Shown here in pieces: positions 41,453 through 63,667 of a stretch of DNA of 64,000 nt. A program made the position numbers and the translations under genes. The DNA lies in NCBI RefSeq assembly GCF_016924645.1, contig NZ_JAFFJV010000006.1, forward strand, positions 124,001-188,000, given 5' to 3'. The notes beneath the pieces are model-generated. The model ran no database searches. It worked only from the letters and a program-made list of their open reading frames with translations, and was not told where the DNA came from. This DNA is from Rufibacter psychrotolerans. Lineage in GTDB: Bacteria; Bacteroidota; Bacteroidia; Cytophagales; Hymenobacteraceae. Positions within the stretch are counted from its first letter, which is position 1. The number at the start of each line of letters is the position of its first letter.

Positions 41453-44400
41453 ATGAAGAAACATGTACTTTCCCCGAAAGTTCAGGTGGTGCTTCTGGCG
41501 TGGCTGCTCCTGTGGGTACAGCCACTCTTTGCGCAATACACCTGGACCCAGCCCGCCCACCTCAACGCCGGGCTGCCCCCTTCCATCAAAGTCTTCTATT
41601 CTGAGACCCCTGCCGCCCCGGGCGTAACGCCGCTCAAGATGTACTACGCCCTGGTAGACCTGAATGACCCCAACATGGAGTTCAAGGCGGTTTACGGCGG
41701 CGGCACCGGCGTGAGTTCCGGCAAAACCCCCGATGCCTGGGCTGCCCTGGAGAAAGACCCGGTGTATGCTGTGATCAACGGCGGTTTCTTTAACACCACT
41801 ACCTATGAGGCTCTGGGTGCCGCTGTGCAGGATGGCAAGATTCTGGCCATCAATGCCAAGTCCTCGGGCGCCAATTATCCCACCCGCAGTGCTTTTGGCG
41901 TGCTGCCCGGCAACATCGCCGACATTGCCTGGATTTACCACGTGGGCGCGGCCAACACCATGTACCAATACCCCAACCCCAACCCGGTAAACCAACTAAC
42001 CCGGCAGCCCACCGCTACCTACCCCGAGGGAGCGGCCCTGTGGCCGGCTTCTACCGCCATTGGCGCGGGGCCAGTGCTGGTGCACAACGGCGTAAAACGG
42101 ATGACCAAAGACGAGGAGCTCATGTGGGCCAGCGGTGATAACCGCGAACCCCGCTCTGCCATTGGCCGCACCGCTGACAACAAAGTAATCCTGATGGTGG
42201 TGGAAGGCCGCAACGACGGGATCAGTGCCGGACTTACCCTGCCTCAAATGGCCGATGTGCTGGTAAGTATTGGTGCCCAGGAAGCCATGAACCTGGACGG
42301 CGGCGGTTCCTCGGCTCTTACCATTCAAGGGAAGAACACCATCCGCCCGTCCGATGCCGGTTTGCAGCGGGCCGTACCCACGGCTCTGATCCTGAAACGC
42401 CGCACGCACGTCTATGACACCGATAACACGACTCTTTACACGGAGCGCGGTGCCTGGTCTGAGTCTTCCAATACGGGTTTCTACGGCACCTCTAAAGCCA
42501 GAGTCCTGGCCACTGGAGACGGTTCCAGTTACGCCTCTTACAAATTGAAAGGCATATCGGCGGGCCGGTATGAGTTGAGTGCCTGGTGGGTAGCCGCCAG
42601 CAATAGAAGCACCAATACGCCTTACATCATTTACCGCACTGGCGGAGCCGCTCCAGACACCGTACGTGTGAACCAGACCGTGAACGGCAGCAAATTCAAC
42701 GTGCTGGGTACGTTTGACCTGGGGCCTAACGACTCGGTGGTGATCAGCAACCAGGCCTCAGGACAGTTTGTTTCCGCCGATGCCCTTTCTCTGGTGAAAG
42801 TAGGGGAGAGCATGCCCGCTATAGCCTTCTCTAACGGAACCGAGCTGGAGGAAGTAGTGCAGGACCGCACCAGTTCTTTTGACCTACTGCTCACCAGCCC
42901 TAACTCCGGGTTTACGGTGCAGAAACTGCGTATTTTCAAGAAAGTAGGCGATAATCCCGAGCAACAGGTGGGCGGTGACATTCCGCTGAACGGCAGTTAC
43001 AGCCATACCTATAACTTCAGCTACGCAGCCTCTGACCCGCTGGGGCCGGTGTATTTCCGGTTTGAGCTGGAAGACAGCTTCGGGCGCACCGTGTCTAAGA
43101 GCTTTGAGTACCGGGTGGTGTCGCTCACGCAGGTGGTGTTCAAAGGCGGCAAAGAATCTGGTCGGCACGCTTACGGGCAGCCACTAAACCTGGATCTTAG
43201 CCTGGAGACCCGCGTGCAGGACATCAACCTGAAAGAGCTGAAGGTGTTTAAATCGGTGGATGGTGGTTCTGAGCAGCAGTTGGGTAGCACCATCGCCCTG
43301 AACGCCCAGCCGCAGCAGGACTATACCTTCACCCACAAATTGGAAGACGCAGTCAACAGCAAAGTGAACTTCCGGTTTGAGGTGACCGATGTGCGCAACA
43401 CCAGCGCCAGCCGTACTTACCAGGTGAAAGTGATGCCTGCCCGCGGTGATTTCCGATTGGCCGTAATCAGTGACCTGAACTCAGGTTTTGGATCGGTGAC
43501 CTATGAGTGGCAGGTAGACAGCATCATGCAACGGATTCCGCGCCTGTGGCAACCCGACATGGTAGTAGCCGGCGGAGACATGATTGCCGGACAATCGGCC
43601 TCTTTGAACGCCACGCAGGTGGCCAACATGTGGAACGGTTTCGATAACAAAGTGGCCAAACCATTAAGGGAAGCCGGTATTCCGTTCGCGTTTACCATGG
43701 GCAACCATGACGCGGCGGCCGGTATGCCCGTTGACCGCCAGGAGGCCCTCAACTACTGGAGAAAGCCCGGTAATTTCCCTAACTGGCACCCGGTAGACAC
43801 TACTAATTACCCCTTCTACTTCTCCTACAAACCCACCGCTAACTCAGACATTTTCTTTGTGTCCTGGGAGGCCAGCAGCGCCAACATCAGCAATGAGCAA
43901 CTGGCGTGGGTGCGGGCGCAGTTCACTAGTCCCGAAGCCAAAGCCGCTAAGTTCCGCTTCCTGGTGGGCCACTTGCCGCTGTACGGCGTGGCACAGGAGT
44001 ACAACTCTGCCGGCAACATTCTGAATAACGCGGCCGCCCTGCAGGCCATGATGGAAGAACTGGATGTGCACACCTACATCAGCGGGCACCACCACGCGTA
44101 TTACCCGGGCAAGCACGGTGGCGTGGAGTTCATGAACGCCGGAGCTGCCGGTTCGGGTCCGCGCAAGTACCTGGGGTATGATGCCGTGGCACCTAATACG
44201 GTCACGTTGATGGACGTTTTCCTGGAGCAGGACACCATCATCTACACCACCTTTGAGATCAAACACCCCGATGCCGATGCCATGCCGGTGTTCAATGAGA
44301 AGAGCCTGCCCGAGGTAATAGTAGGCGCCAACGGCCACCTGATCCGGCGCGATGTGCCCATCAGCGGAGCCGCCGTAGGAGCGCTTTCTTCTTACAACAA

Positions 44401-46948
44401 GCGCAAGACCACGGTAGGGCAAGCCACCGGTACGGTAGAAGCCGTGGAAGTGGGCAACGATATCCGATTTGTGGGCTCGTTCAGCGGCTTGAAAGGAGCC
44501 ATTTTACCCGAGAAAACCGCTGTTGCCTTGTACCAGGGGCTTTACCCGGAAGAAGGTACCCTGAAGCTCGCCATGAAGGTAGAATCTACCGATGGCCGCA
44601 CCGGCACCTTTACCGGCAGCCTGCCCGCAGATTTTGCCGTGAAAGAACTCATGAGCATGGGTGCCTTCTACGTCCTCATCAAAACCGATTCCCTGCCCGA
44701 AGGCGAGGTGCGTACCCAACTCTACAAACCTGCTAACGCCGCTCCGGCAACGGCTGTGATTACCTCACATGATGCCAACACCGTGTATCCGGTACGGAAT
44801 ATCAAAGGCTTCTTCTCTGTGAAATGGAACGCTGAGGCAGATGCCGAACGGAACACCGTGACCTACACCTACCAATTGGCCAAAGATGCTCAGTTCAACC
44901 AACTGCTGCTGCACAAGCCGGTTGGCCTCAACGCTGAGTACAGCGTGCCGCAGGAAGAATGGTTTGCCTTGTTAGGCTATGCCCCGGCAAACCAAGCCGT
45001 GACGTTCTACCACCGCGTGATTGCCTCAGACGGGAAAAACGTGAGTATAAGTGCTCCCGTGGCGCTGCAACTGACCAAGAGCGATGCGCCAATCACCGGT
45101 CCAGTGGAGATTCCGGCTGCCGGCTTTGTGTATGACTGCCGCGTGAAAGACCCTGACGGGAACTGTATTGCGGCATTTGCTCCGGCCCCAACCACCAACG
45201 GTCACGGCGTGACGGTAGACCGCAAAGGCAAGGTGTGGTCTGTGGGCTATAGCCGGGGTGTGCGGGTGAACAACCCAGACGGTACGCCGTGGGAGTTCAC
45301 CAGTGACAAACTGGAGTTTTACCAGGGCAACAAATCGTACCTGCACTTCATCAATTTCAAAGGCTTGCGGGAAGAAGTGAGACTGGTAACCGGTATTGGC
45401 CTGGCCCATGACGGCAACATTCTGGTGGCCTTCAACACCATTTTGTACAAACTGGACGTGAACACCGGAGAGCCCCTGGCCCGCGTGGATACCGATATCT
45501 CCCTCACCAACCCTACCTCCGATGACAAAGGCAACATCTTCGTGACTTCGGTGACTGGGAACAAGAGCTACATTTTCAGGCAGAGCGCTACAGACCCCAC
45601 TGCGTTTGAAACCGTGGTAACCCTGGCAAACGCCACCGCGTTGCCGGCCCGCACGTCTGGCTCGGTGGCCCGCGCCTCGGCTATTTCGCCGGAGGGGAAC
45701 ACTATCTACGTGCCATATATCTCGGGCAACAAGATAGACAAGTACACCAGCCAGGACGGCCTCACCTGGACCCTGGACGAAACCATTAAAATAGTCTCAA
45801 ACTCCAAGTCCATCTTCGCGGCCAGCAACAACCGCATGTACGCCGTGGTAGACGCCAGCGGAGACCAGCCGGCCAAACTTATCTTCCGCGATGACAGCAA
45901 TCCGGCCCAGAAACTTTCCTGGACCCTGCCGCTGCCTGAAATCCACGGCACCGATCTGCGCGGCCTTACCCTGAGCCCCGGCCTGGATACGGCGTATATT
46001 GTTTCTTCAGCCGTTGGAACAGTGTACCGCTACGTGCTGCCCAGCGACGGGAACACCGGCGAAGAACCTCGGGAGCTGCGTGAGTACACCATTGCCCAGG
46101 CCAGAGAAACCGATGCCACCGGCAAGGAGATTCACGTGGGCGAGTACGTGCTGCTGCGCGGCGTAGTAGCCAGCCCCAACCTGTCAAGGGCCCATCTGGA
46201 TCTGTCGTTGATGAGCGGCGGCAAGGCGGTACAGCTTTACCGCGCCACGAAGGGGGCAAGAACCTTCGCACCGCAACTGAAAGACAGTGTGGCCGCCATT
46301 GGCGTGCTGCGGAACTACAACGGCTTGCTGCGCGTGGAGGTAGATTCCCTGTTCCTGCTCAAAGCCAACAGCGTACTGCCTGCGCAAGCCACGGTGACCG
46401 CCATTGGCGAGGAACTGGAATCTGTGCCGGTGACCATTCACCAGGCCTTCCCCGTGGATAAGAGCCAGTGGACCACCGGTCTGGGCTACCATGGTTTCGA
46501 GGTGACGTTGGAGTCTACCGCCGGGCCCATCAACCTCCTGGTACCGCCTACTTCGGTGCTTTACAACCAACCTGCCCCCAGTGGCATGCTGAAACTGGAA
46601 GGCGTGGTGCGCCAGTACAAAGACACGCCGCCGTATACCACCGGTTACTACCTGGTTCCTTTGCGGTTCAAATCTGAAATCGGGCCCAGAAACGACAAAG
46701 ACGCACTATCGGTGAAAGTATATCCGGTGCCCACTACAACCGGCACGGTGTACGTGGAGCTGCCGCAGTCGGTGCTGAAAGGTGCTTCTATTCAGGTGGT
46801 AGACCTGTTTGGCCGCGTGCTGCTGGAGAAGGGCGATTTTACCCAAAACAAAGTGGCGCTTGACCTTTCCAAACAGCAGCCCGGCACCTATCTGGTGGTA
46901 GTGAACACCGTGGATGGCAGAACCGTGCACCGCGTCATGAAAGAGTAG
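41453..46948 (+). CDS. Multidomain T9SS cargo: phosphodiester glycosidase, metallophosphoesterase, CHRD and others
   Basis: 1,831 residues. Signal peptide to about LFAQ (28). Domains in order: NAGPA-type phosphodiester glycosidase (about 60-320; VINGGFF at 107, NLDGGGSS at 280-287); golvesin/xanthan-lyase CBD-like domain (about 325-448); two Ig-like regions (about 455-665); metallophosphoesterase (about 668-950; Asp674, GNHD 750-753, His840, SGHHH 877-881); CHRD domain (about 955-1095); fibronectin-like domain; a propeller-like region (about 1225-1540); a DUF5689-like OB domain (about 1545-1750); and a C-terminal T9SS sorting domain (VKVYPVPTTTGTVYVEL to the end). It is exported and probably surface-bound. 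The pairing suggests removal of phosphate-linked sugars from polymers, but the substrate is inference. It is monocistronic. Confidence 0.88.
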   Translation: MKKHVLSPKVQVVLLAWLLLWVQPLFAQYTWTQPAHLNAGLPPSIKVFYSETPAAPGVTPLKMYYALVDLNDPNMEFKAVYGGGTGVSSGKTPDAWAALEKDPVYAVINGGFFNTTTYEALGAAVQDGKILAINAKSSGANYPTRSAFGVLPGNIADIAWIYHVGAANTMYQYPNPNPVNQLTRQPTATYPEGAALWPASTAIGAGPVLVHNGVKRMTKDEELMWASGDNREPRSAIGRTADNKVILMVVEGRNDGISAGLTLPQMADVLVSIGAQEAMNLDGGGSSALTIQGKNTIRPSDAGLQRAVPTALILKRRTHVYDTDNTTLYTERGAWSESSNTGFYGTSKARVLATGDGSSYASYKLKGISAGRYELSAWWVAASNRSTNTPYIIYRTGGAAPDTVRVNQTVNGSKFNVLGTFDLGPNDSVVISNQASGQFVSADALSLVKVGESMPAIAFSNGTELEEVVQDRTSSFDLLLTSPNSGFTVQKLRIFKKVGDNPEQQVGGDIPLNGSYSHTYNFSYAASDPLGPVYFRFELEDSFGRTVSKSFEYRVVSLTQVVFKGGKESGRHAYGQPLNLDLSLETRVQDINLKELKVFKSVDGGSEQQLGSTIALNAQPQQDYTFTHKLEDAVNSKVNFRFEVTDVRNTSASRTYQVKVMPARGDFRLAVISDLNSGFGSVTYEWQVDSIMQRIPRLWQPDMVVAGGDMIAGQSASLNATQVANMWNGFDNKVAKPLREAGIPFAFTMGNHDAAAGMPVDRQEALNYWRKPGNFPNWHPVDTTNYPFYFSYKPTANSDIFFVSWEASSANISNEQLAWVRAQFTSPEAKAAKFRFLVGHLPLYGVAQEYNSAGNILNNAAALQAMMEELDVHTYISGHHHAYYPGKHGGVEFMNAGAAGSGPRKYLGYDAVAPNTVTLMDVFLEQDTIIYTTFEIKHPDADAMPVFNEKSLPEVIVGANGHLIRRDVPISGAAVGALSSYNKRKTTVGQATGTVEAVEVGNDIRFVGSFSGLKGAILPEKTAVALYQGLYPEEGTLKLAMKVESTDGRTGTFTGSLPADFAVKELMSMGAFYVLIKTDSLPEGEVRTQLYKPANAAPATAVITSHDANTVYPVRNIKGFFSVKWNAEADAERNTVTYTYQLAKDAQFNQLLLHKPVGLNAEYSVPQEEWFALLGYAPANQAVTFYHRVIASDGKNVSISAPVALQLTKSDAPITGPVEIPAAGFVYDCRVKDPDGNCIAAFAPAPTTNGHGVTVDRKGKVWSVGYSRGVRVNNPDGTPWEFTSDKLEFYQGNKSYLHFINFKGLREEVRLVTGIGLAHDGNILVAFNTILYKLDVNTGEPLARVDTDISLTNPTSDDKGNIFVTSVTGNKSYIFRQSATDPTAFETVVTLANATALPARTSGSVARASAISPEGNTIYVPYISGNKIDKYTSQDGLTWTLDETIKIVSNSKSIFAASNNRMYAVVDASGDQPAKLIFRDDSNPAQKLSWTLPLPEIHGTDLRGLTLSPGLDTAYIVSSAVGTVYRYVLPSDGNTGEEPRELREYTIAQARETDATGKEIHVGEYVLLRGVVASPNLSRAHLDLSLMSGGKAVQLYRATKGARTFAPQLKDSVAAIGVLRNYNGLLRVEVDSLFLLKANSVLPAQATVTAIGEELESVPVTIHQAFPVDKSQWTTGLGYHGFEVTLESTAGPINLLVPPTSVLYNQPAPSGMLKLEGVVRQYKDTPPYTTGYYLVPLRFKSEIGPRNDKDALSVKVYPVPTTTGTVYVELPQSVLKGASIQVVDLFGRVLLEKGDFTQNKVALDLSKQQPGTYLVVVNTVDGRTVHRVMKE

Positions 46949-52416: not shown

Positions 52417-53553
52417 ATGAACAGATGTCTACGTAAAGTTACAATGTGGGCCGTGCCGGTGGTGGGATTGCTGCTGTCGGCGGGCCAGGTCCAGGCCCAG
52501 GATGAGGTGGGGGAGTTTATAAGGGCCGGCAAGGAAGACGCCGGTAAACTGGTACGGGCGTATGCCGAGCCGGCCAGCAAAGCGTTTGGGCACGGCCTGA
52601 ACGGCGGTTGGTTCAACTCGGGCAAGGCCATGAAGCTGGGCCGGTTTGACGTGCGCGTGTTTGCCACGGCCACCTTCTCGCCGGAAGAGGACAGAACGTT
52701 TGACCTGTCTAAGCTGGGCCTGACCATGGTGCGCGACGAGAACGGCAGAGTGTTTGACCCCAACACCCCGGTGCTTTCCCCCACCATCTTCGGGAAAGAC
52801 GAGGAAGGCCCGGAACTGACGCTGTATGCCAAGGCCAGAAGAACCGTGGCAGGGCAGTCGGTGGAAGTGGAAGAGCGAGTAGGGTCTATCAATGCCCCCC
52901 AGGGCGCGGGCTACACCTTTCTGCCGGTGCCAATGGCCCAGGTGAGCCTTGGGTTGATCAAAGACACTGAGGTGGCCGTCAGGTACTCGCCTAAGGTGAA
53001 GTACGATGACTTTGAGGGAGAACTTTGGGGCGTGGGCCTCAAGCACGGCATCAAGCAGTGGATTCCGGTGATCAGCATGATTCCGGGGTTTGACATTACG
53101 GTGTTTGGCGGCTACACCCACCTGAAGAGTGCCTACCGGGGCCTGGACGTGCCCTTGCGGGATGAAGACCGTCCGTATGCCACGGCCCAACAGCAAGACC
53201 CGCAATACTACGCCGGGCAAGCCGTGACCCTTTCCACCAAAGCCTGGACTGGCAGCCTGGTGGTGTCCAAGACCCTGAGCGTGCTTACCGCCTATGCCGG
53301 GGTGCGGTACAGTAATGTGGAGACAGACCTGAACGTGGAAGGGGCCTACCCCGTTACGGCCTACCGTACCACTGCTCCTTATAACAGATATGTAGAAGAT
53401 ATCACTGACCCGTTACTCCTTAATATGAAGGACTCCCAGTGGGGGGCCACGGGCGGTCTGCGGCTGAAACTGCTGGTCTTCTCGCTGTACGGCGAGTACA
53501 CCCTGGCTAAATACCCCACCGCCACCGCCGGTATTGGGCTTGGCTTTAACTAA
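52417..53553 (+). CDS. DUF6588-like outer-membrane beta-barrel protein
   Basis: 378 residues. Signal peptide to about VQAQ (28). The remainder reads as amphipathic strands ending in YTLAKYPTATAGIGLGFN, with a barrel-type terminal strand. N-terminal GEFIRAGKEDAGKLVRAYAEPASKAFGHGLNGGWFNSGKA and the KLGRFDVRVFATATFS stretch match a Bacteroidota family I associate with DUF6588 (about 350-380 residues, outer membrane). Function unknown. Own terminator; not obviously linked to neighbours. Confidence 0.75.
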   Translation: MNRCLRKVTMWAVPVVGLLLSAGQVQAQDEVGEFIRAGKEDAGKLVRAYAEPASKAFGHGLNGGWFNSGKAMKLGRFDVRVFATATFSPEEDRTFDLSKLGLTMVRDENGRVFDPNTPVLSPTIFGKDEEGPELTLYAKARRTVAGQSVEVEERVGSINAPQGAGYTFLPVPMAQVSLGLIKDTEVAVRYSPKVKYDDFEGELWGVGLKHGIKQWIPVISMIPGFDITVFGGYTHLKSAYRGLDVPLRDEDRPYATAQQQDPQYYAGQAVTLSTKAWTGSLVVSKTLSVLTAYAGVRYSNVETDLNVEGAYPVTAYRTTAPYNRYVEDITDPLLLNMKDSQWGATGGLRLKLLVFSLYGEYTLAKYPTATAGIGLGFN

Positions 53554-53683: not shown

Positions 53684-53973
53684 GTTAGCAATTATGATAA
53701 GTACAGTTTAGGGGTGATTCTTAAAAAAGGGATAGGAAATAGCATAATAAGCTATGCTTTTAACAAGTGAGGAAAGATAAGTTAGGATTTAGGACGCTGT
53801 TGTAAGTCCCTGAGATTGCATTAGGTGCGTTGCTAAAACTGATTCTATACGATTATTTAAAATTTGTGTTAGGGAGTTTGTGATAAAAGTTGAGAGGTAG
53901 AGTTGTTAATGCCACTTTTTCTTCTAAATTTGATTAACGAACAATAATATTTTACTAACAAACCAACAAACAC
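53684..53973. other. AT-rich promoter region of susCD operon 1
   Basis: About 290 bp, AT-rich, with the promoter at 53902-53932 and a Shine-Dalgarno-less leader of ACAAAC-type repeats (AACAAACCAACAAACAC) before the ATG. Confidence 0.6.
53902..53932 (+). promoter_or_regulatory. Promoter of susCD operon 1
   Basis: GTTG at 53902-53905, 19-nt spacer, TAAATTTG at 53925-53932 (exact TAnnTTTG). The -33 side reads TTGTTAATGC, a 10-mer also found at the -33 of operon 2. Confidence 0.75.
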
Positions 53974-56900
53974 ATGAAGAAAACTTTACTATTCAGCTTC
54001 GTGTTGCTGCTGGCGCTTGTGGGGCAAGCGTGGGCACAAACACGGACTGTAACAGGACGAGTGACTGACGCCAGGACAGGAGAGGGAATGCCTGGCGTGA
54101 CAGTTCAGCTCAAAGGAACTACCACGGCTGCGCCAACAGATGCAAATGGCGGGTACTCTATCAGTTTGCCTACCGGTAATGGAACATTGGTGTTCTCCTT
54201 TGTGGGCTATACCAACCAGGAAATTAACGTAGGCTCAAACTCGGTGGTGAATGTGAGACTGGCGCAAGACGCTGAAACCATTAATGAAGTGGTGGTTGTG
54301 GGGTACGGCACCAAAACCCGGGAAGATCTGGCTGCTTCGGTAGCTGTGATTGGAGCGAAGGAGATTGAATCTAAGCCGGTTCCTTCCGTTGACCAGTTGC
54401 TGCAAGGCAGAGCGGCCGGGGTTCAGGTAACCGCGGCTAACGGTAAGCCTGGGGCCAACGCCTACATCAGAATCAGGGGTACAGGGTCTATCAACGCTGG
54501 TAACCAACCGTTGCTGGTGGTGAACAACGTGCAGATTCCAGACAACATGAGAGATCAGTTCTTCAACTCTATCAATGCCAATGACATTGAAAGTATCTCT
54601 GTGCTGAAAGATGCGGCCGCTGCTTCTATCTACGGGGCAAGAGGTTCTAACGGGGTAGTGGTTATCACTACCAAAAGCGGAGCCAAGTCTCAGGGAACCC
54701 TGACCTACCGGTTCCAGTCTGGTATCAACGAGAAAGTTCCAGACAATTTTGACATGATGAACTCTGCGCAGAAGCTGCAGTATGAGTATGAACTGGGGTA
54801 CACCAACCCGTACGTAAGTACTTACTTTGCTAATAACCGCGGTACTTTCCCTGTTGGGACCACCATCACCAGCATTACGCCAGAGCAGCGCCAGACCGTT
54901 TGGAATGCCATTGCCGCTAACGACCATGATTGGCAGGATGCCATCCTTCGTAATGGCAAGATCCAGCAGCACGAGCTTTCTTTTGGCGGTAGCACCGGCA
55001 AAACCAATTACTACTTCTCTGTGCAGAAATTTGACCAACAGGGTATCGTGATTGGGTCTGACTTTGACAGATACTCCAGCACCTTGAACATCAGCACGGA
55101 TATCAAGCCTTGGCTGAGCGTGGGTAACTCCTTGAACATTGGCCATACTACCAGCAAAGAGTTGCGTGATAGAAACAACGTGCAGAACCCTTTCAGAGCC
55201 ATGTACGTGTACAACCCTTATGAGCCGGTACGTAACCCAAATGGCACATTTAACCCTACGCACCAGGGTGTAAACATTGTGCAGTATGTGGAAACGGAGC
55301 CTGAGGAGATGAGAAACCTGACAGGGTTGAACGCCTTCAACGTTGACATTCACCCCATTCAAGGGCTTAACATCACCTCAAGAGTTGGTTTGACCCTGAG
55401 AGATTACACCCGTGAGTCTTTCTCTGAGCCAGGTGGTGCACTTGACCCAATTGTAGGTGACCCGGCTGCGCCAGGTAGCAAAACTGATAACGGTTCAAGA
55501 GAATTCTACTACAGCTGGACAAACCAGGCCAGATATGAGTTTGCCGTAGGCCAAGACCATAACTTCAGTGTGCTTGGTATCCAGGAATTCCAGAAGAGCC
55601 AGTTCAGCAGCTACTCTTTGTCTAAAAAAGGATTTGCCAGCGCAGACCTGACCACCCAGGACAACGGTGCCGCTAATACTGGAAATAACTCTACCTCTAA
55701 ATCTGTGTGGACTTTATTTTCTTTGGCGGGTAGCGCTGAGTACAACTTCCAGAGAAGGTACTTCCTGACCGGGAGCATCCGTAGAGATGGTTCCTCAAGA
55801 TTTGGTGCCAACAACAAATACGGTACTTTCTGGTCAACCAGCGCTTCCTGGCTTCTTTCAGAAGAGTCATTCATGCAGGACTTTGATTGGCTGACCCTAT
55901 TAAAAGTAAGAGCGTCTATTGGTACTGTTGGTAACTTCAGCGGCCTGTCAAACTACCAAGCTTTAGGTTTGTACAATTTCGGCCGTTACGGTGGTGCATT
56001 GACCAGCTTCCCTGGCCAGATTGCTAACCCTGATCTGACCTGGGAGTCTAAACTGAAGCGCAACGTAGGGGTAGACGTAGAGTTATTCCAGTCAAGAGTT
56101 GCCCTTAGCTTAGACTATTACAATGAGTACACCGATGACCTGCTTTTGGATCAGCCTGTGTCAAGAACTACTGGCTTCACGTCTGTAACCAGAAACATTG
56201 GCGCCATGTCTAACAAAGGGGTGGAAGCTGGTTTGAACGTAGACATCATCAGAAATGAAAACCTTACCTGGTCTTTCAATGGTAACATTACCTTTAACAA
56301 GAACCGCGTAGAGGAGCTCAATGAAGGTCAGGAGGAGATTGTGGATGCAGTTACCGGTATCAACGTTTACAGACCAGGCCACGCGTACAGTACTTACAAA
56401 ATGGTGCGTTGGGCAGGCGTAGACCCACAAACCGGTGAAGCCCAGTTCTATAACAAGAACGGGGAGATCACAAAAACTTACTTAGCTTCAGACGCAGTGG
56501 TGCTGGAAGGCAAAAGCAGTAACCCAGATTATTATGGTGGCTTTGGAACCAGTTTGGCTTACAAAGGCTTCGATCTGTCTGCGCAGGTGAACTACACAGT
56601 AGGAGGGTATACTTACAATGGTATTATGGCCACGCTGGTTTCCTGGGGGCCTTCCCGTACGCAGAACCTGAGCACCGATGCCTTTGACTACTGGAGAAAA
56701 CCAGGTGATGTGACTTTCCTGCCCAAAGCCTCTGCCAGCAACACTACTAGAACCACAGATCAATACCTGCAGGATGCGTCTTTCCTGAGATTGAGAAACG
56801 TGACACTGGGGTACACAGTGCCTAAGAGCTTGACTAACAAGATTAAAGTGCAGAATCTGAGAGTATACGTTCAGGGGCAGAACCTGTTGACGTACATTCC

Positions 56901-57030
56901 TAACTACTTCGGTGACCCTGAAGTTGGAACCGGTAGTGCAGAGTCAAACTTGTTCATTCCGGGCCAGTACAGCCTGTATAGCTATCCAACTACCCGTCAG
57001 CTGACCTTTGGTTTGGATATCAGTTTCTAA
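53974..57030 (+). CDS. SusC/RagA-type TonB-linked outer membrane protein 1
   Basis: 1,018 residues. Signal peptide to AWAQ (22), CarboxypepD_reg-like domain (about 23-106), TonB-box-like TINEVVVVGYGT, plug with the SusC signature (DAAAASIYGARGSNGVVVITT), then the barrel ending LTFGLDISF. SusC proteins form the outer-membrane channel closed by a SusD lipoprotein lid and import oligosaccharides or peptides. The SusD partner starts 24 bp downstream. The first 176 bp are nearly identical to those of the second susC gene at 59032, while the remainder is diverged. No glycan-degrading enzyme is nearby. Confidence 0.96.
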   Translation: MKKTLLFSFVLLLALVGQAWAQTRTVTGRVTDARTGEGMPGVTVQLKGTTTAAPTDANGGYSISLPTGNGTLVFSFVGYTNQEINVGSNSVVNVRLAQDAETINEVVVVGYGTKTREDLAASVAVIGAKEIESKPVPSVDQLLQGRAAGVQVTAANGKPGANAYIRIRGTGSINAGNQPLLVVNNVQIPDNMRDQFFNSINANDIESISVLKDAAAASIYGARGSNGVVVITTKSGAKSQGTLTYRFQSGINEKVPDNFDMMNSAQKLQYEYELGYTNPYVSTYFANNRGTFPVGTTITSITPEQRQTVWNAIAANDHDWQDAILRNGKIQQHELSFGGSTGKTNYYFSVQKFDQQGIVIGSDFDRYSSTLNISTDIKPWLSVGNSLNIGHTTSKELRDRNNVQNPFRAMYVYNPYEPVRNPNGTFNPTHQGVNIVQYVETEPEEMRNLTGLNAFNVDIHPIQGLNITSRVGLTLRDYTRESFSEPGGALDPIVGDPAAPGSKTDNGSREFYYSWTNQARYEFAVGQDHNFSVLGIQEFQKSQFSSYSLSKKGFASADLTTQDNGAANTGNNSTSKSVWTLFSLAGSAEYNFQRRYFLTGSIRRDGSSRFGANNKYGTFWSTSASWLLSEESFMQDFDWLTLLKVRASIGTVGNFSGLSNYQALGLYNFGRYGGALTSFPGQIANPDLTWESKLKRNVGVDVELFQSRVALSLDYYNEYTDDLLLDQPVSRTTGFTSVTRNIGAMSNKGVEAGLNVDIIRNENLTWSFNGNITFNKNRVEELNEGQEEIVDAVTGINVYRPGHAYSTYKMVRWAGVDPQTGEAQFYNKNGEITKTYLASDAVVLEGKSSNPDYYGGFGTSLAYKGFDLSAQVNYTVGGYTYNGIMATLVSWGPSRTQNLSTDAFDYWRKPGDVTFLPKASASNTTRTTDQYLQDASFLRLRNVTLGYTVPKSLTNKIKVQNLRVYVQGQNLLTYIPNYFGDPEVGTGSAESNLFIPGQYSLYSYPTTRQLTFGLDISF

Positions 57031-57054
57031 GTAACAGTAAAACCTAGATTTAAA

Positions 57055-58518
57055 ATGAAGAGAAAGTATATATATATGCTGGCAATAGGACTAATGTCTT
57101 TTGCTGGCTGTGACAGTGAACTAGACCAGGAGCCCTTTAATGCGTTGAGTACCGGGCAGGCGTTTAGAACGCCGGCAGATTTTCAGAATGCCCTTAGAGG
57201 TGCTTACGCCGGACTAAGAGGAGCCTCTTATTATGGGGGGCAGGATGCGGGCTCTATGATTATTACGCCAGACATTCTTTCAGACAACCTGATTATCAAC
57301 TCGCAGGGAAGGTTCTCGCAACAGACCCTTTACCAGCTGAACTACACGGCTAACAATACCTGGAACATCTGGAACAACGCCTATACTACTATCCTGAGAA
57401 CAAACTACATTCTGGAAAACATCAACAATTTGCCAGAAGGTGCTGAGAGGGAGAACGTGAAGGCGGAAGCATTGGGCTTAAGAGCCCTTGCCCACTTTGA
57501 TTTGCTCCGGTTATATGCAAAGCGCTACATTGGAGCAACAGATGCAGACTTGGGAGTGCCGTATGTGACCTCAACAGATCCAACCCAGAAACCAAGCAGA
57601 ACCCCTCTGAAGCAAGCATATGACCTGGTTGTCGCTGACTTTCTTGCCGCCGAGGCTGGTATCAACGCTACTAACGGGGTGGGCCGTCTAAGCAAGGCTG
57701 CCGTACAGGGCTTGCTTGGCAGGGTGTATCTCTACATGGGGCAATGGCAGAATGCCGTTGATAAGTCAACGGCTGCTATCAACAATGCTCCTGCCGCAAA
57801 CGCGCTGGCTTCAAGAACTGAGTTCCCAAGCATCTGGACCGATGCTACTGAGAAAGACGTTCTCTTTAAAGTAAGGATCTTAGATACAGACGCTACACCT
57901 GTGGTGACCGTTGGGGTAGGGTATCAACAAACCGTGAACGGCTTGGTGCGGGCTGAGTTTAGCCCAACCTGCGAGCTGGTAAGATTGTACGCCCCAGAAG
58001 ACGTGCGAACTACCACTTACATTGGAGAGTCAACCTACGGTGGGTTAACCTCAAAGTATGTTAAGAAGCACGTGGGTAGAGGAACTGGTGCGTTGAATGT
58101 GGTAGACGTAAAAGTGCTCAGGCTTTCTGAAGTGTACCTAAACCGGGCCGAGGCGCTTTACAACCTGGGTGCTGGCCAGCACGCGGCTGCCCTGGCAGAC
58201 TTGAACGAGATCAGGAGCAGACGTTACTCTAATTTTGATCCAGCAACAGCAGTGGAGACAGGGACCGACTTATACAACGCTATTCTGGAAGAAAGAAGAC
58301 TGGAGCTTGCCTTTGAAGGTCACCGGTTCTTTGATCTCAAGCGCCTGGGCTTGCCAATTGAGCGTTCTGCAACAGAAGGGGATGCGTCTGACTGTTCTGG
58401 GGTAGCCGCTCCGGCCAATGCCAGAACTCTTCCAGCGGACAACTTCAGGTTCCAGTTGCCTATTCCACAGGCAGAGATTGATGCTAACAAGAACATCATT
58501 CAGAACAAGGATTATTAA
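57055..58518 (+). CDS. SusD/RagB-type nutrient-binding lipoprotein 1
   Basis: 487 residues. Lipobox Cys19 (MSFAGC) followed by DSELDQEP. SusD-like N-terminal domain and RagB/SusD helical (TPR-like) domain with the common C-terminal block ILEERRLELAFEGHRFFDLKRLG. It forms the lid of the SusC channel and first binds the nutrient. The junction to susC carries GATTTAAAATGA around the start codon, also present in the second pair. Ligand unknown. Confidence 0.96.
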   Translation: MKRKYIYMLAIGLMSFAGCDSELDQEPFNALSTGQAFRTPADFQNALRGAYAGLRGASYYGGQDAGSMIITPDILSDNLIINSQGRFSQQTLYQLNYTANNTWNIWNNAYTTILRTNYILENINNLPEGAERENVKAEALGLRALAHFDLLRLYAKRYIGATDADLGVPYVTSTDPTQKPSRTPLKQAYDLVVADFLAAEAGINATNGVGRLSKAAVQGLLGRVYLYMGQWQNAVDKSTAAINNAPAANALASRTEFPSIWTDATEKDVLFKVRILDTDATPVVTVGVGYQQTVNGLVRAEFSPTCELVRLYAPEDVRTTTYIGESTYGGLTSKYVKKHVGRGTGALNVVDVKVLRLSEVYLNRAEALYNLGAGQHAAALADLNEIRSRRYSNFDPATAVETGTDLYNAILEERRLELAFEGHRFFDLKRLGLPIERSATEGDASDCSGVAAPANARTLPADNFRFQLPIPQAEIDANKNIIQNKDY

Positions 58519-58530
58519 CAGATCCCTGAA

Positions 58531-58585
58531 GTCTATAAGAAAAAAAGAGGAGCAGAAATTCTGCTCCTCTTTTTTTCTTATAGAC
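58531..58585 (+). terminator. 55-bp perfect palindromic terminator of susCD operon 1
   Basis: GTCTATAAGAAAAAAAGAGG plus AGCAGAA (58531-58557) pairs without mismatch with 58559-58585; seven-T tract sits within the right arm. Confidence 0.92.
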
Positions 58586-59031
58586 GCTCTGTCTTTCTGA
58601 TTCATGCAGAGATTTGATTGTAGAGTTGTGTAGCAAGGCATTTCTTTAATTGTCAGCGGTGATAGAAGTGCTTAAAGAAAACCTTCCTAACGGGTGCTTG
58701 TTTGTTTTAGTGCTATAACAGGTGCTGAAATTTTAACTGTTGCGGTTGATGGCTAAGCCCGAGAAAGAAAAGTCAAAATAATTTTCTCAAAGGATTCCGA
58801 AGCGCAAATTGATATAATACTAACAAACAAGATATATAAGTACATATATATTAAAGTTGTTATTAGTGTCATTCATATTTTGCAAAACTTAAAAATTACG
58901 GATTTCAAGAAGCCATCTTCTGCTTTCAAATCCCCTTTGGGTTAGTATGTTAAGGATTTGTTAATGCTGATACTATGCCTAAATTGGGCTAACAAATACA
59001 AAACTGTTTAACTAACAACCAACAAACACAC
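58586..59031. other. Promoter region of susCD operon 2
   Basis: 446 bp, AT-rich. Promoter at 58957-58987, then a leader ending AACAACCAACAAACACAC before the ATG, very like that of operon 1. No coding sequence or palindrome copy. Confidence 0.6.
58957..58987 (+). promoter_or_regulatory. Promoter of susCD operon 2
   Basis: TTTG at 58957-58960, 19-nt spacer, TAAATTGG at 58980-58987 (one mismatch). TTGTTAATGC begins at 58958, shared with operon 1. Confidence 0.72.
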
Positions 59032-62000
59032 ATGAAGAAAACTTTACTATTCAGCTTCGTGTTGCTGCTGGCGCTTGTGGGGCAAGCGTGGGCGCAAACA
59101 CGGACTGTAACAGGGCGAGTGACTGACGCATCAACAGGAGAGGGAATGCCTGGCGTGACAGTTCAGCTCAAAGGGACGACCACGGCTGCGCCAACAGATG
59201 CAAATGGGTCTTATTCAATAAGCGTACCTACTGCGGGCGGTACCTTGATTTTCTCCTTTATTGGGTACACAAACCAGGAAGTTGCCATCGGCAGCCAATC
59301 TACCCTAAATGTCAGGCTGGCACTTGATGCCAAACAGTTGGCAGAGATTGTAGTGCAGGTGCCTTATGGTACAGCAGACCCTGCTACTTTTACGGGTTCC
59401 ACTGCCACCATTAGTTCCGAGAAATTAGGGCAGCGGCCGGTAACCAACATCACCAATGCTATTGCCGGGCAGGCTCCGGGGGTAGTGGTAGCTTCCGGAA
59501 CAGGTCAGCCTGGTGGCGGTCCGGATATCCAGATCAGAGGATTTAGCTCCATCAACTACTCTAACTCTCCTCTTTACGTGGTAGATGGCGTTCCTTACAC
59601 CGCAGGTTTGTCTAACCTGAACATGGAGGATGTTGAAAACATCACTATCCTAAAGGACGCTGCGTCTACGGCTCTTTATGGTTCGCGCGCTACCAACGGG
59701 GTAGTGATGATCACAACCAAAAAAGGCCGTAAAGATAGAACAAGGGTTAACCTTAGAGCGCTTCAGGGGGTTACTTCCAGAGCGGTTCCTGAGTATGAGC
59801 GCGTAAATGCACAGGAGTACTATCCTTTAATGTGGGAAGGTTACCGGAACACCTTGATCAATGCCACCACTACCAGAGAACAAGCTAATAAGCTGGCAAG
59901 TGCTGGTATCAAGAACATTCTGGGGTACAACCCATTCAATGTTCCTAACAACCAGATTGTTTCAGAAGATGGAACATTGAATCCTGATGCACAACTGTTG
60001 TGGGGAGATGACCTGGATTGGGAGAAGAACTTAACTCGCAGCAGCTCAAGATCAGACTACACGCTGAGCTTTAGCGGCGGAAGCGACAAAACAGATTATT
60101 ATGTGTCACTTGGCTATCTGAACGATAGAGGCTATTTGATCAGATCTGATTTTGAGCGTTACTCAGCCAGATTGAACGTAAACAGCAAGGTGACTAACTG
60201 GTTTAAGGCAGGCCTTAACTTAACGGGTACCCTTTCAAACTCAAACCAGGCTAGTACAGGTTCTGCCACTGGCTATGTGAACCCTTTCTATTTCAGCCGC
60301 AACATTGGACCTATCTACCCAGTGCACCAGCATGATCCGGTAACGGGTGCCTATATCCTTGACGAGAATGGCGAAAAGCAGTATGACATTGGAACTACTG
60401 CGGGTATGACTCGCCCAGGAGGCGGTAGCCCAGGCAGACATATTGTTGCGGAGACAGAATGGAATAAGTTTTTGTACAGACGTAACGTGGCTGGTGCAAG
60501 AACCTATGGTGAAATCACTTTCCTGAAAGATTTCAAGTTCACCACCAACCTTACGGTTGACATCACCAACTATGAGGAGCAAGGATACGAGAACACAATT
60601 GTAGGCGATGGTGCACCGGCAGGAAGAGCCAACCGTACGCTTTACAACTTAACCAGCTACACCGTTAACCAGTTGCTTGGTTACAACAAGACCTTTGATG
60701 TTCATACCATCGATTTCCTGGTGGGCCATGAGAACTACAGCAGAACCCGTGACTATCTGTACGGGATGAAGCAAGGCGAGGTAGTGGCCAACAACACAGA
60801 GTTGATCAACTTTGGAACTATCAATGACCTGTACACCTACAAGCAAGAACATAAGATAGAGTCGTTCTTTGCAAGAGCAAACTATACCTTTGGTGATAGA
60901 TACACATTGTCTGGTTCCTTCAGAAGAGATGGATCCTCCAGATTCTTTGAGGATGTACGCTGGGGTAACTTCTGGTCTGTGGGAGCATCCTGGAGACTAG
61001 ACAGAGAGACGTTCTTCACCATGCCTAACTGGGTGGACATGATCAAAGTAAGATCATCTTATGGCCAGGTAGGAAATGAAGATGTGGATAACTACTATGC
61101 CTGGCAGGCACTGTATGCCCTGGGGTATGAAAACGCCACTGAGGGTGGATTCTTGCAGTCAAGCCTTGGAAACAGAGCGCTTCACTGGGAAAAGAACAAC
61201 TCCTTTGATGTGGGCGTGGAGTTCGGCCTTTTCGGCAACAGATTGACCGGATCGGCGGAGTATTTCTTCCGTGAGTCTGAAGATCTTCTATTTGCCGTGA
61301 AGCAGCCGTTGTCAAGTGGTGTTGATGAGGTTATCCAGAACATTGGTGCCATGAACAACAGAGGGGTAGAGCTGCGCCTGGCAGGTGATATCCTTAGAAC
61401 CAACGGCTTTACCTGGAATCTTGATGTAAACTGGACTTCTTACAAGAATGAAATCACCCAGATGCCTCCTCTGCAGAAAGAATTGGTAAGTGGGACTAAA
61501 AAGTTGAAAGAAGGAGAGTCAATCAACTCATTCTGGTTGCGTGAGTACTATGGGGTAGACCCTGAAAATGGAAACGCCTTGTATAGAGCCAATGTGTACA
61601 ATGAGACCAACAGCAAAATTATTGGCAGCGATACCGTTACCTGGGTAGCCAACAACGCAAGATTCCATTATGCCGGTACCTCCATCCCTGACTTCTCTGG
61701 TGGTATCACCAATACGTTCTCTTTCAAAGGGTTCACACTTTCTGCCTTGCTTACTTACCAGGTAGGTGGTAAAATCTATGACAGTGAGTATGCAGGTTTA
61801 ATGAACGCATCTTATGGTGCGGCCTTGCACAGAGACATCATGAACCGCTGGCAAAAGCCCGGTGACATTACTGACGTGCCAAGACTGCACCCTGGAAACA
61901 CCGACCTAAATGCTGCCTCAGACCGTTGGTTGGTTGATGCCTCTTACCTGAACTTCAGAAATGTGACCTTGAGCTACAATGTTCCAACCGGGTTTACAAA

Positions 62001-62163
62001 AAGGCTGAAACTGCAGAATGTCAATATTTTCGCATCTGGCGAGAACCTTGGGTTGATCTCAAAGAGAAAAGGAATGAACGTTGGGCAAAACTTTATTGGT
62101 ACCACTTCAGCGGTTTACACCCCTGCTCGTGTGCTTTCATTAGGGTTGAATCTTTCTTTGTAA
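59032..62163 (+). CDS. SusC/RagA-type TonB-linked outer membrane protein 2
   Basis: 1,043 residues. Signal peptide and CarboxypepD_reg-like domain as in the first SusC, then LAEIVVQVPYGT, plug with DAASTALYGSRATNGVVMITT and a barrel ending VLSLGLNLSL. The plug and barrel are clearly different from SusC 1 (for example SINYSNSPLYVVDGVPYTAG), so it should import another ligand. The first 176 bp are about 95% identical in DNA to those of SusC 1, including silent positions. SusD partner begins 13 bp downstream. Confidence 0.96.
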   Translation: MKKTLLFSFVLLLALVGQAWAQTRTVTGRVTDASTGEGMPGVTVQLKGTTTAAPTDANGSYSISVPTAGGTLIFSFIGYTNQEVAIGSQSTLNVRLALDAKQLAEIVVQVPYGTADPATFTGSTATISSEKLGQRPVTNITNAIAGQAPGVVVASGTGQPGGGPDIQIRGFSSINYSNSPLYVVDGVPYTAGLSNLNMEDVENITILKDAASTALYGSRATNGVVMITTKKGRKDRTRVNLRALQGVTSRAVPEYERVNAQEYYPLMWEGYRNTLINATTTREQANKLASAGIKNILGYNPFNVPNNQIVSEDGTLNPDAQLLWGDDLDWEKNLTRSSSRSDYTLSFSGGSDKTDYYVSLGYLNDRGYLIRSDFERYSARLNVNSKVTNWFKAGLNLTGTLSNSNQASTGSATGYVNPFYFSRNIGPIYPVHQHDPVTGAYILDENGEKQYDIGTTAGMTRPGGGSPGRHIVAETEWNKFLYRRNVAGARTYGEITFLKDFKFTTNLTVDITNYEEQGYENTIVGDGAPAGRANRTLYNLTSYTVNQLLGYNKTFDVHTIDFLVGHENYSRTRDYLYGMKQGEVVANNTELINFGTINDLYTYKQEHKIESFFARANYTFGDRYTLSGSFRRDGSSRFFEDVRWGNFWSVGASWRLDRETFFTMPNWVDMIKVRSSYGQVGNEDVDNYYAWQALYALGYENATEGGFLQSSLGNRALHWEKNNSFDVGVEFGLFGNRLTGSAEYFFRESEDLLFAVKQPLSSGVDEVIQNIGAMNNRGVELRLAGDILRTNGFTWNLDVNWTSYKNEITQMPPLQKELVSGTKKLKEGESINSFWLREYYGVDPENGNALYRANVYNETNSKIIGSDTVTWVANNARFHYAGTSIPDFSGGITNTFSFKGFTLSALLTYQVGGKIYDSEYAGLMNASYGAALHRDIMNRWQKPGDITDVPRLHPGNTDLNAASDRWLVDASYLNFRNVTLSYNVPTGFTKRLKLQNVNIFASGENLGLISKRKGMNVGQNFIGTTSAVYTPARVLSLGLNLSL

Positions 62164-62176
62164 AACTTGATTTAAA

Positions 62177-63667
62177 ATGAAAAAAATAATTTATAGCGTT
62201 TTCCTGATAGCTGGGCTACTTGCTTCTTCCTGTAGTGATGATTATCTGGATACAGTGCCCACCAGTGATGTGACAGAAGCAGATGTGTTGTCCAGCACTG
62301 AAAATGCTTATTCGGCCTTGAATGGAATTCACCGGATGATGTATACCCAGCACAATGGTAGACAGAACCAAGGCGGGGAGGGCAGCAACAAAATTTTTAT
62401 GGATGCTTTGGGCGAAGACTGGGTGCAAACTGCCCAGGGAAACGGTTGGTTCAACGGAGAACACAACTGGACCTCCCACAGAAACGCCACTTCTACCACC
62501 ACCTATAACCATGCATGGTATTACTTCTATTACAGAATTATAGCCAATGCCAATATGTTGATCAACGGCCTGGACAATGCCACCGGGCCTGAGGCTGAAA
62601 AGAAAATGATCATCGGGCAGGCCCTTGTATACAGAGCCTGGTCACATTTTCAGCTGGTGCAAGCCTTTGGTGAGCGCTATGACGCCTCTAAAAACAACGC
62701 GCAGCTAGGTGTTCCCATCATGGTGACCAACACAACCGAAGGACAGCCCCGGGCTACTGTGGAAGAGGTGTATACACAGATTAACCAGGACTTGGATGCC
62801 GCCATCGAGAATCTATCTGGAGCTGCCGCCCGCGTGGAGAAGTCACACTTTAACGTTTGGGTAGCCAGAGGTATCAAAGCAAGAGTTGCCCTTACTATGC
62901 AGAACTGGGCTTTGGCGTCTAGCCTCGCAAAAGAAGTGATTGCCGGAAGCGGCGCCTCTTTGATGACCCAGCAAGAGTACCTGCAAGGGTTTAACAGTGT
63001 AAGCAACAGAGAGTGGTTATGGGGGAGCAAAATGATCCCAGACCAAACCTCTTATTTCTACTCTTTCTTTGCGTACATGTCTTCCAATTACAATTCTTCA
63101 TACATAAGAACCAATCCTAGAAAGATCAACAACTTATTGTATGATAAAATTGCTGACACTGATGTTCGGAAAAAGCTTTGGGATCCAACCGGGGAGAGCA
63201 TTCCGGCACCTCCCGGGGGAGTTAAGCCAGCGTATGCCCAAAATAAGTTTAGGGTAGCAAATACGGGTTCGAGCATTGGGGATGTTCCTCATATGCGTTT
63301 GGCAGAGATGTACCTCATAGCAGCCGAAGCTGATGCCAGAAGAGGCGAGGACGGCTTAGCCCTGGAGAGCCTCAATGCGCTGTTGACGTCACGGGGCGCG
63401 CCTGCGTCAACCAATACCGGCCAAGACCTGATTGATGAAATCTTGATTCAGCGCCGGATAGAGTTGTGGGGAGAAGGGTTCCGCTTCTTAGACCTGAAAC
63501 GTACCAACAGTGCCTTGGACAGAACCGGTGCCAATCATCCTGCAGCCTACGCCTGGGCTATCAGAACCAGCAACTTTACGGTGCCAGCAGGAGCAAAAGA
63601 ATGGCAGTTCCTGTTCCCGCAGAGAGAGATTGACACCAACAAGCAGATTGTGCAGAATCCACTCTAA
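62177..63667 (+). CDS. SusD/RagB-type nutrient-binding lipoprotein 2
   Basis: 496 residues. Lipobox Cys19 (LLASSC), then SDDYLDTVPTSDVTEAD, the usual SusD start. C-terminal IDEILIQRRIELWGEGFRFLDLKRTN matches the family. Lid partner of SusC 2. Weakly similar to SusD 1, as expected for a different ligand. Followed by a terminator and then an S9-type peptidase gene, a context that fits peptide rather than glycan uptake (inference). Confidence 0.95.
   Translation: MKKIIYSVFLIAGLLASSCSDDYLDTVPTSDVTEADVLSSTENAYSALNGIHRMMYTQHNGRQNQGGEGSNKIFMDALGEDWVQTAQGNGWFNGEHNWTSHRNATSTTTYNHAWYYFYYRIIANANMLINGLDNATGPEAEKKMIIGQALVYRAWSHFQLVQAFGERYDASKNNAQLGVPIMVTNTTEGQPRATVEEVYTQINQDLDAAIENLSGAAARVEKSHFNVWVARGIKARVALTMQNWALASSLAKEVIAGSGASLMTQQEYLQGFNSVSNREWLWGSKMIPDQTSYFYSFFAYMSSNYNSSYIRTNPRKINNLLYDKIADTDVRKKLWDPTGESIPAPPGGVKPAYAQNKFRVANTGSSIGDVPHMRLAEMYLIAAEADARRGEDGLALESLNALLTSRGAPASTNTGQDLIDEILIQRRIELWGEGFRFLDLKRTNSALDRTGANHPAAYAWAIRTSNFTVPAGAKEWQFLFPQREIDTNKQIVQNPL

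Follow-up and report, generated by a model that had tools for sequence, protein, structure and literature searches.

In a tandem susCD array of Rufibacter, the plug, barrel and SusD partner are probably swapped by homologous recombination while the promoter, signal peptide and N-terminal extension (NTE) ahead of them stay constant, with episodic conversion of the susC starts; we give this reading a probability of about 0.75. The array lies in a 64,000-nucleotide stretch of the Rufibacter psychrotolerans genome (the window), in which two neighbouring susC genes begin with nearly the same DNA. The initial annotation had proposed gene conversion or module swapping at this start, and a comparison of 16 genomes supports the proposal: the starts converge within a genome, the bodies are orthologous across genomes, and the upstream DNA tends to follow position.

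Both encoded proteins, SusC1 and SusC2, are SusC/RagA TonB-linked transporters, with TIGR04056 scores of 808.9 and 770.5 bits (cut-off 368), TIGR04057 signature scores of 63 and 60 bits (cut-off 46), and matches to the RagA structure 6sli at E values of 2e-113 and 4e-107. A SusD gene, identified by Pfam, lies directly 3' of each susC, and each cassette holds a SusC/SusD pair. The gene next after susD2, beyond the window, encodes an S9-type peptidase. The array of the window consists of the following features:

52417..53553, + strand: DUF6588 gene that anchors the susCD array on its left side (Pfam PF20230, E=1.6e-92)
53824..53973, + strand: susC1 upstream region with a predicted, consensus-based Bacteroidota-type promoter-like sequence and an A/C-rich leader (upstream alignment)
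53974..54149, + strand: shared block copy 1, encoding the SusC1 signal peptide and the beginning of its NTE (8/176 mismatches to copy 2)
54150..54297, + strand: remainder of the susC1 NTE, zone in which the start-body link breaks (CarbopepD_reg_2, residues 26-108; codon identity profile)
54298..57030, + strand: susC1 body with TonB box, plug and barrel (TIGR04056)
57055..58518, + strand: susD1 (PF07980, PF14322)
58531..58585, no strand: terminator-like inverted repeat, perfect over 27 bp, where cassette 1 ends (repeat analysis)
59032..59207, + strand: shared block copy 2 (8/176 mismatches to copy 1)
59208..59355, + strand: remainder of the susC2 NTE (CarbopepD_reg_2, residues 26-108; codon identity profile)
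59356..62163, + strand: susC2 body (body comparison with orthologues)
62177..63667, + strand: susD2, final gene of the array (Pfam SusD matches)

In protein terms, the shared block covers the signal peptide and the beginning of the NTE (Pfam CarbopepD_reg_2, residues 26-108). As first counted, there are 8 mismatches over 176 bases between its two copies (53974-54149 and 59032-59207), with the single residue change R34S up to Gly59, and the copies are direct rather than inverted, each with its own promoter-like upstream region. The ungapped pair found by the repeat search stretches to 265 nt at 86%, and the sole similarity found by gapped blastn between cassettes 1 and 2 covers -49 to +252 around the ATG at 84.6%. 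The sequences had been said to diverge at once past Gly59. This holds for silent sites, as the same codon is used for the same amino acid at a rate of 0.8-1.0 up to codon 59 and of 0.14 at codons 61-70, but not for the proteins, which stay 60-80% similar to about codon 100. Past that point, near the end of CarbopepD_reg_2 at residue 108, their similarity falls to 38-44%, and the bodies of SusC1 and SusC2 are about 32% identical, that is, family-similar only, as had been claimed. This low identity past the block refutes a plain duplication, the outcome that the initial annotation had named as fatal to its proposal. A genome-wide search for further block copies returned only two, at 73-74%, and no other pair with such a block was present among about 30 susC starts of the window genome that were compared. 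An assembly artefact is unlikely as the source of the block, since a single-contig genome, G005, has the same pattern at 98.9%. Upstream of most tandem susC genes, at about -85 to -25, we also observed the motif GTTAAGRATTTGTTAA followed by TAnnTTTGG, which resembles a Bacteroidota promoter.

The 16 genomes of the genus that carry the block, one per species, all have the same locus, with 1-4 tandem susCD cassettes behind the DUF6588 gene. This gene anchors the array on the left in 15 genomes, and a contig end stands there in the remaining one. In the genomes read, the gene order is asd, LTD protein, TauE, DUF6588, 1-4 susCD cassettes and, in most cases, peptidase genes and metK; some cassettes have one more lipoprotein besides SusD in their variable part. 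Six genomes have an additional, reverse-facing cassette across asd, on its far side. Hereafter, G000 denotes the window genome, a, b and c denote tandem cassettes, and the suffix r denotes a reverse-site cassette. The search with the array-adjoining DUF6588 matched Rufibacter species and Sabulibacter ruber, and the protein itself (window 52417-53553) is only 52-82% conserved within the genus. A hand count from the body tree and the identities gives about 12 families among the 35 array cassettes at about 60% body identity. The susC1 body has its sole close orthologue among the 16 genomes in G005 (position 2 of the same array, 87%), and the susC2 body has close orthologues only in G009 (position 1, 90%) and G015 (position 3, 74%), again in the same array. 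Close forms of susC1 and susC2 thus occur in 2 and 3 of the 16 genomes, respectively, always in this array and at differing positions. In the window, a gene for an 1831-aa secreted protein with phosphodiester glycosidase, metallophosphoesterase and Por secretion tail (41453-46948) apparently sits where relatives carry the reverse-facing susCD cassette.

The comparison across species demonstrates that starts and bodies have different histories. In three species (the window species, G005 and G015), neighbouring susC starts are 88-99% alike while their bodies are 31-36% identical. Specifically, block and body identities are 94.9% and 32% for G000a/b, 98.9% and 32% for G005b/c, and 92.7% and 31% for G015a/b; the three neighbouring starts of G005 are 93-99% alike (bodies 32-35%), and those of G015 are 88-93% alike. 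Conversely, orthologous bodies can have less similar starts, as in G000a/G005b (body 87%, block 82%) and G008a/G015b (body 94%, block 81%), and across species the starts of orthologous bodies are no more alike than those of unrelated cassettes. The trees show the same decoupling: G000a+b, G005a+b+c and G015a+b+c appear as starred clades in the block tree, whereas the body tree interleaves the species (30 label changes against a shuffled mean of 28.3), groups families across species and never places the cassettes of one genome together. Cassette G005a combines the body of the reverse-site cassettes G009r/G010r (88%) with the start of its own neighbours (93-94%). Along the gene, orthologous and non-orthologous pairs are about equally alike over codons 1-80; the orthology signal climbs where the NTE meets the plug (codons 90 to 110) and is clear only after about codon 100.

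These data also bear on the idea that the cassettes arose by tandem duplication and that the bodies then diverged fast, with a start that was merely slow. The tandem arrangement and the common family would agree with it, but most bodies have orthologues of 65-94% in other species and only about 32% identity to their neighbour, so the bodies are older than the species, and the starts are species-specific in three genomes. The orthologue comparison refutes this origin, and we regard it as extremely improbable.

The identity of starts within a genome was never reached by label shuffles (0/3000), with the own genome in or out. When G000, G005 and G015 were removed, no excess over the shuffles was left (699/3000), which indicates that homogenisation is episodic. 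Since label shuffles ignore relatedness among genomes, the weight rests on the orthologue comparison. In the same three genomes the paralogous segments are more alike than the orthologous ones, as in concerted evolution, and the remaining genomes show no excess. That homogenised starts are clear in only three of the ten genomes with two or more tandem cassettes counts against the recombination model.

The upstream DNA tends to follow chromosomal position, and the body follows the cassette family. Among the best 20 upstream pairs, 17 are at the same array position, and 13 of these have bodies less than 45% identical; G008a/G015b, with bodies 94% identical, have just 46-49 upstream bases in common. 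Clear junctions are seen where the body is replaced between kept flanks. Cassettes G008r/G010r match at 80% identity over -1999 to +298 and regain similarity at +4820/+4979; their interior, the susC body and susD, is replaced (28% identity). Likewise, G003a/G014a share -149 to +270 and the flanks around a cassette that differs. G002r/G003r are 80% identical from -1999 to +326, with bodies at 27%. Cases of the G008r/G010r type, together with G005a, indicate that resident DNA gives way to replaced DNA within the susC start, and the start-body link breaks there near the end of the NTE, at codons ~60-100. No common sequence was found across cassettes at their right-hand end. The reverse-site cassettes have an upstream region unlike that of the GTTAAGRATTTGTTAA-bearing tandem cassettes.

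Based on these comparisons, the locus is probably a genus-wide site for susCD cassettes, with a constant start (local promoter, signal peptide and NTE) and a variable remainder (TonB box, plug, barrel, the paired SusD and sometimes one more lipoprotein). The left crossover of an incoming cassette, foreign or moved, would be resolved in the last homology, the susC start, since homology between different cassettes ends there, and the new body would thereby be joined to the resident promoter and start. Because the right-hand ends have no sequence in common, the right crossover would have to use farther flanking homology or end joining. Occasionally one start would convert its neighbour, giving near-identical starts within a genome, and the 176-bp block of the window is probably such a recently homogenised pair. 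Crossing over between the direct repeats could delete or add cassettes, which fits the variable cassette number. We infer that the process is RecA-type recombination with incoming DNA plus gene conversion, and its timing, as well as its benefit, the exchange of substrate, phage or immune specificity, is proposed on the same footing. The lack of a common right-hand cassette end weighs against this model, as does the fact that fast intergenic divergence alone could give orthologous cassettes apparent breakpoints at their start and stop codons. A further point against it is that it rests on one genome per species, with events read from comparisons between species.

The codon usage of the starts hints at an additional force. 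Relative to the expectation for the same amino acids at orthologue divergence, genomes with unrelated bodies show a codon excess of +0.25 at codons 1-9, +0.24 at 23-30 and +0.21 at 31-40, with a dip to +0.04 at codons 10-22. Rare codons are kept genus-wide within codons 23-48: CGA (1% of arginines in bodies) stands at codon 29 in 26/29 tandem copies, and CTC (3% of leucines in bodies) at codon 46 in 27/29. This pattern, high at codons 1-9 and 23-40 with a dip between, does not look like a plain recombination tract and counts against recombination as the only explanation. It would be expected if nucleotide-level selection on a DNA or RNA element (a recombination hot spot, or a regulatory or translation element) kept the start constant, with the similarity within genomes as a consequence. 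A codon constraint on susC genes throughout the genome was rejected, as susC genes beyond the array for the most part use other codons, even where the amino acids agree, which again favours a local element. One such gene (L003) encodes nearly the same peptide and has a codon match of 0.20 against 0.33 expected; another susC copy (L004, contig C27) is intermediate at 0.55. A general effect of 5' ends was rejected as well, because five core genes, over their first 58 codons, exceed the expectation by only -0.07 to +0.13.

An overlapping reading frame was rejected, as the other frames of the block are broken in the sequences shown, and conserved RNA structure is weak, with z values of -1.7 (block) and -0.3 (codons 24-50); the folding z of -3.4 with 63 nt downstream added depends on one long-range helix. 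Moreover, selection on the start alone leaves the species-specific silent changes and the clades of G000, G005 and G015 unaccounted for, and also the position-linked upstream DNA. Exchange across species would likewise conserve codons, but hardly with the dip in the middle, which a selected element would produce. Taken together, we consider nucleotide selection unlikely as the sole cause of the constant start, and the more specific proposal, a selected element that guides cassette exchange or controls expression, serving as an acceptor site without its own recombinase, equally unlikely. Beside recombination, nucleotide-level selection may be an additional factor at codons 1-9 and 23-40.

Site-specific inversion offers another way to use a shared susC start. 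In Bacteroides fragilis Region EE, inverted repeats overlap the starts of alternative susC genes behind an invertible promoter, and the invertase Tsr0667 shuffles them (PMC5729914, PMC11852207). A recombinase acting on the susC start could in the same way switch the expressed susC in Rufibacter, and two observations are in line with this: six genomes have reverse-facing copies, and the one recombinase gene recognised nearby, which is XerC-like, lies about 6 kb downstream (G000:C25:194005-194883; L067:10005-10883). But the copies in the window genome are direct, each with its own promoter-like upstream region, the reverse copies elsewhere reach at most 83% identity to tandem copies in their own genome, and none of the genomes read showed an inverted core, so that inverted near-identical repeats at susC starts were not found. 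The invertase that the initial annotation had suggested looking for was not recognised among the locus genes read in the window and its relatives. The XerC-like protein scores best to XerC (327.8 bits, just below the cut-off of 335), and it is probably a housekeeping enzyme, since its gene is similarly placed downstream in G010 and G015. A shufflon is therefore a very unlikely explanation.

Among known systems, the locus resembles the rag locus of Porphyromonas gingivalis in anatomy, without a recognised enzyme like that of the B. fragilis shufflon. All four rag alleles have nearly the same first ~450 bases of ragA but differ in the remainder of that gene and in ragB, and the types of ragA and ragB go together (PMC11817032). 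Rufibacter susC genes, like ragAB alleles 1-4, have a near-constant start and a differing remainder and SusD partner. However, the rag locus holds one allele per genome, varying between strains, whereas Rufibacter has 1-4 different cassettes in tandem per genome, with start and body decoupled across the genus and neighbouring starts homogenising each other. The shufflons of B. fragilis Region EE and the nutrient-receptor shufflons of B. thetaiotaomicron also contain alternative susCD pairs with common sequence around the susC start codon (PMC5729914, PMC11852207, PMC12548429); they differ in having inverted repeats, a site-specific recombinase, an invertible promoter and action within a culture, while the Rufibacter repeats are direct (window genome), the cassettes have separate upstream regions, and a dedicated recombinase was not recognised.

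A literature search found no publication about the susC genes of Rufibacter. Surface-protein families such as the Helicobacter pylori outer-membrane proteins are known to undergo concerted evolution by gene conversion. As there, segments of paralogues within a Rufibacter genome can be closer than orthologues, but Rufibacter homogenises the start only, and the remainder is a swappable two-gene cassette. What appears to be new is a tandem array that keeps a constant start and could be traced through a whole genus, together with the homogenisation of neighbouring starts. The proposed recombination at the susC start suggests how environmental Bacteroidota can exchange complete nutrient receptors at a single site of expression with no invertase involved, such that promoter, signal peptide and NTE are kept and the transporter and its lid are replaced. 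An NTE that stays constant while the barrels behind it change could act as a common adaptor. Since P. gingivalis rag and Rufibacter have this architecture in common, exchange at susC starts may be widespread, and near-identical starts could serve as simple markers of recent exchange in strain collections.

Additionally, several susD genes are followed by unusually long perfect hairpins, with stems of 24-36 bp and loops of 0-6 nt, for example at 58531-58585 of the window and in G010a, G005a, G009a and others. These terminator hairpins were considered as a common right cassette end and rejected, because they differ per cassette and are found at other gene ends too. Their sequences differ even between orthologous cassettes, as if the perfect pairing were re-established while the sequences turn over rapidly.
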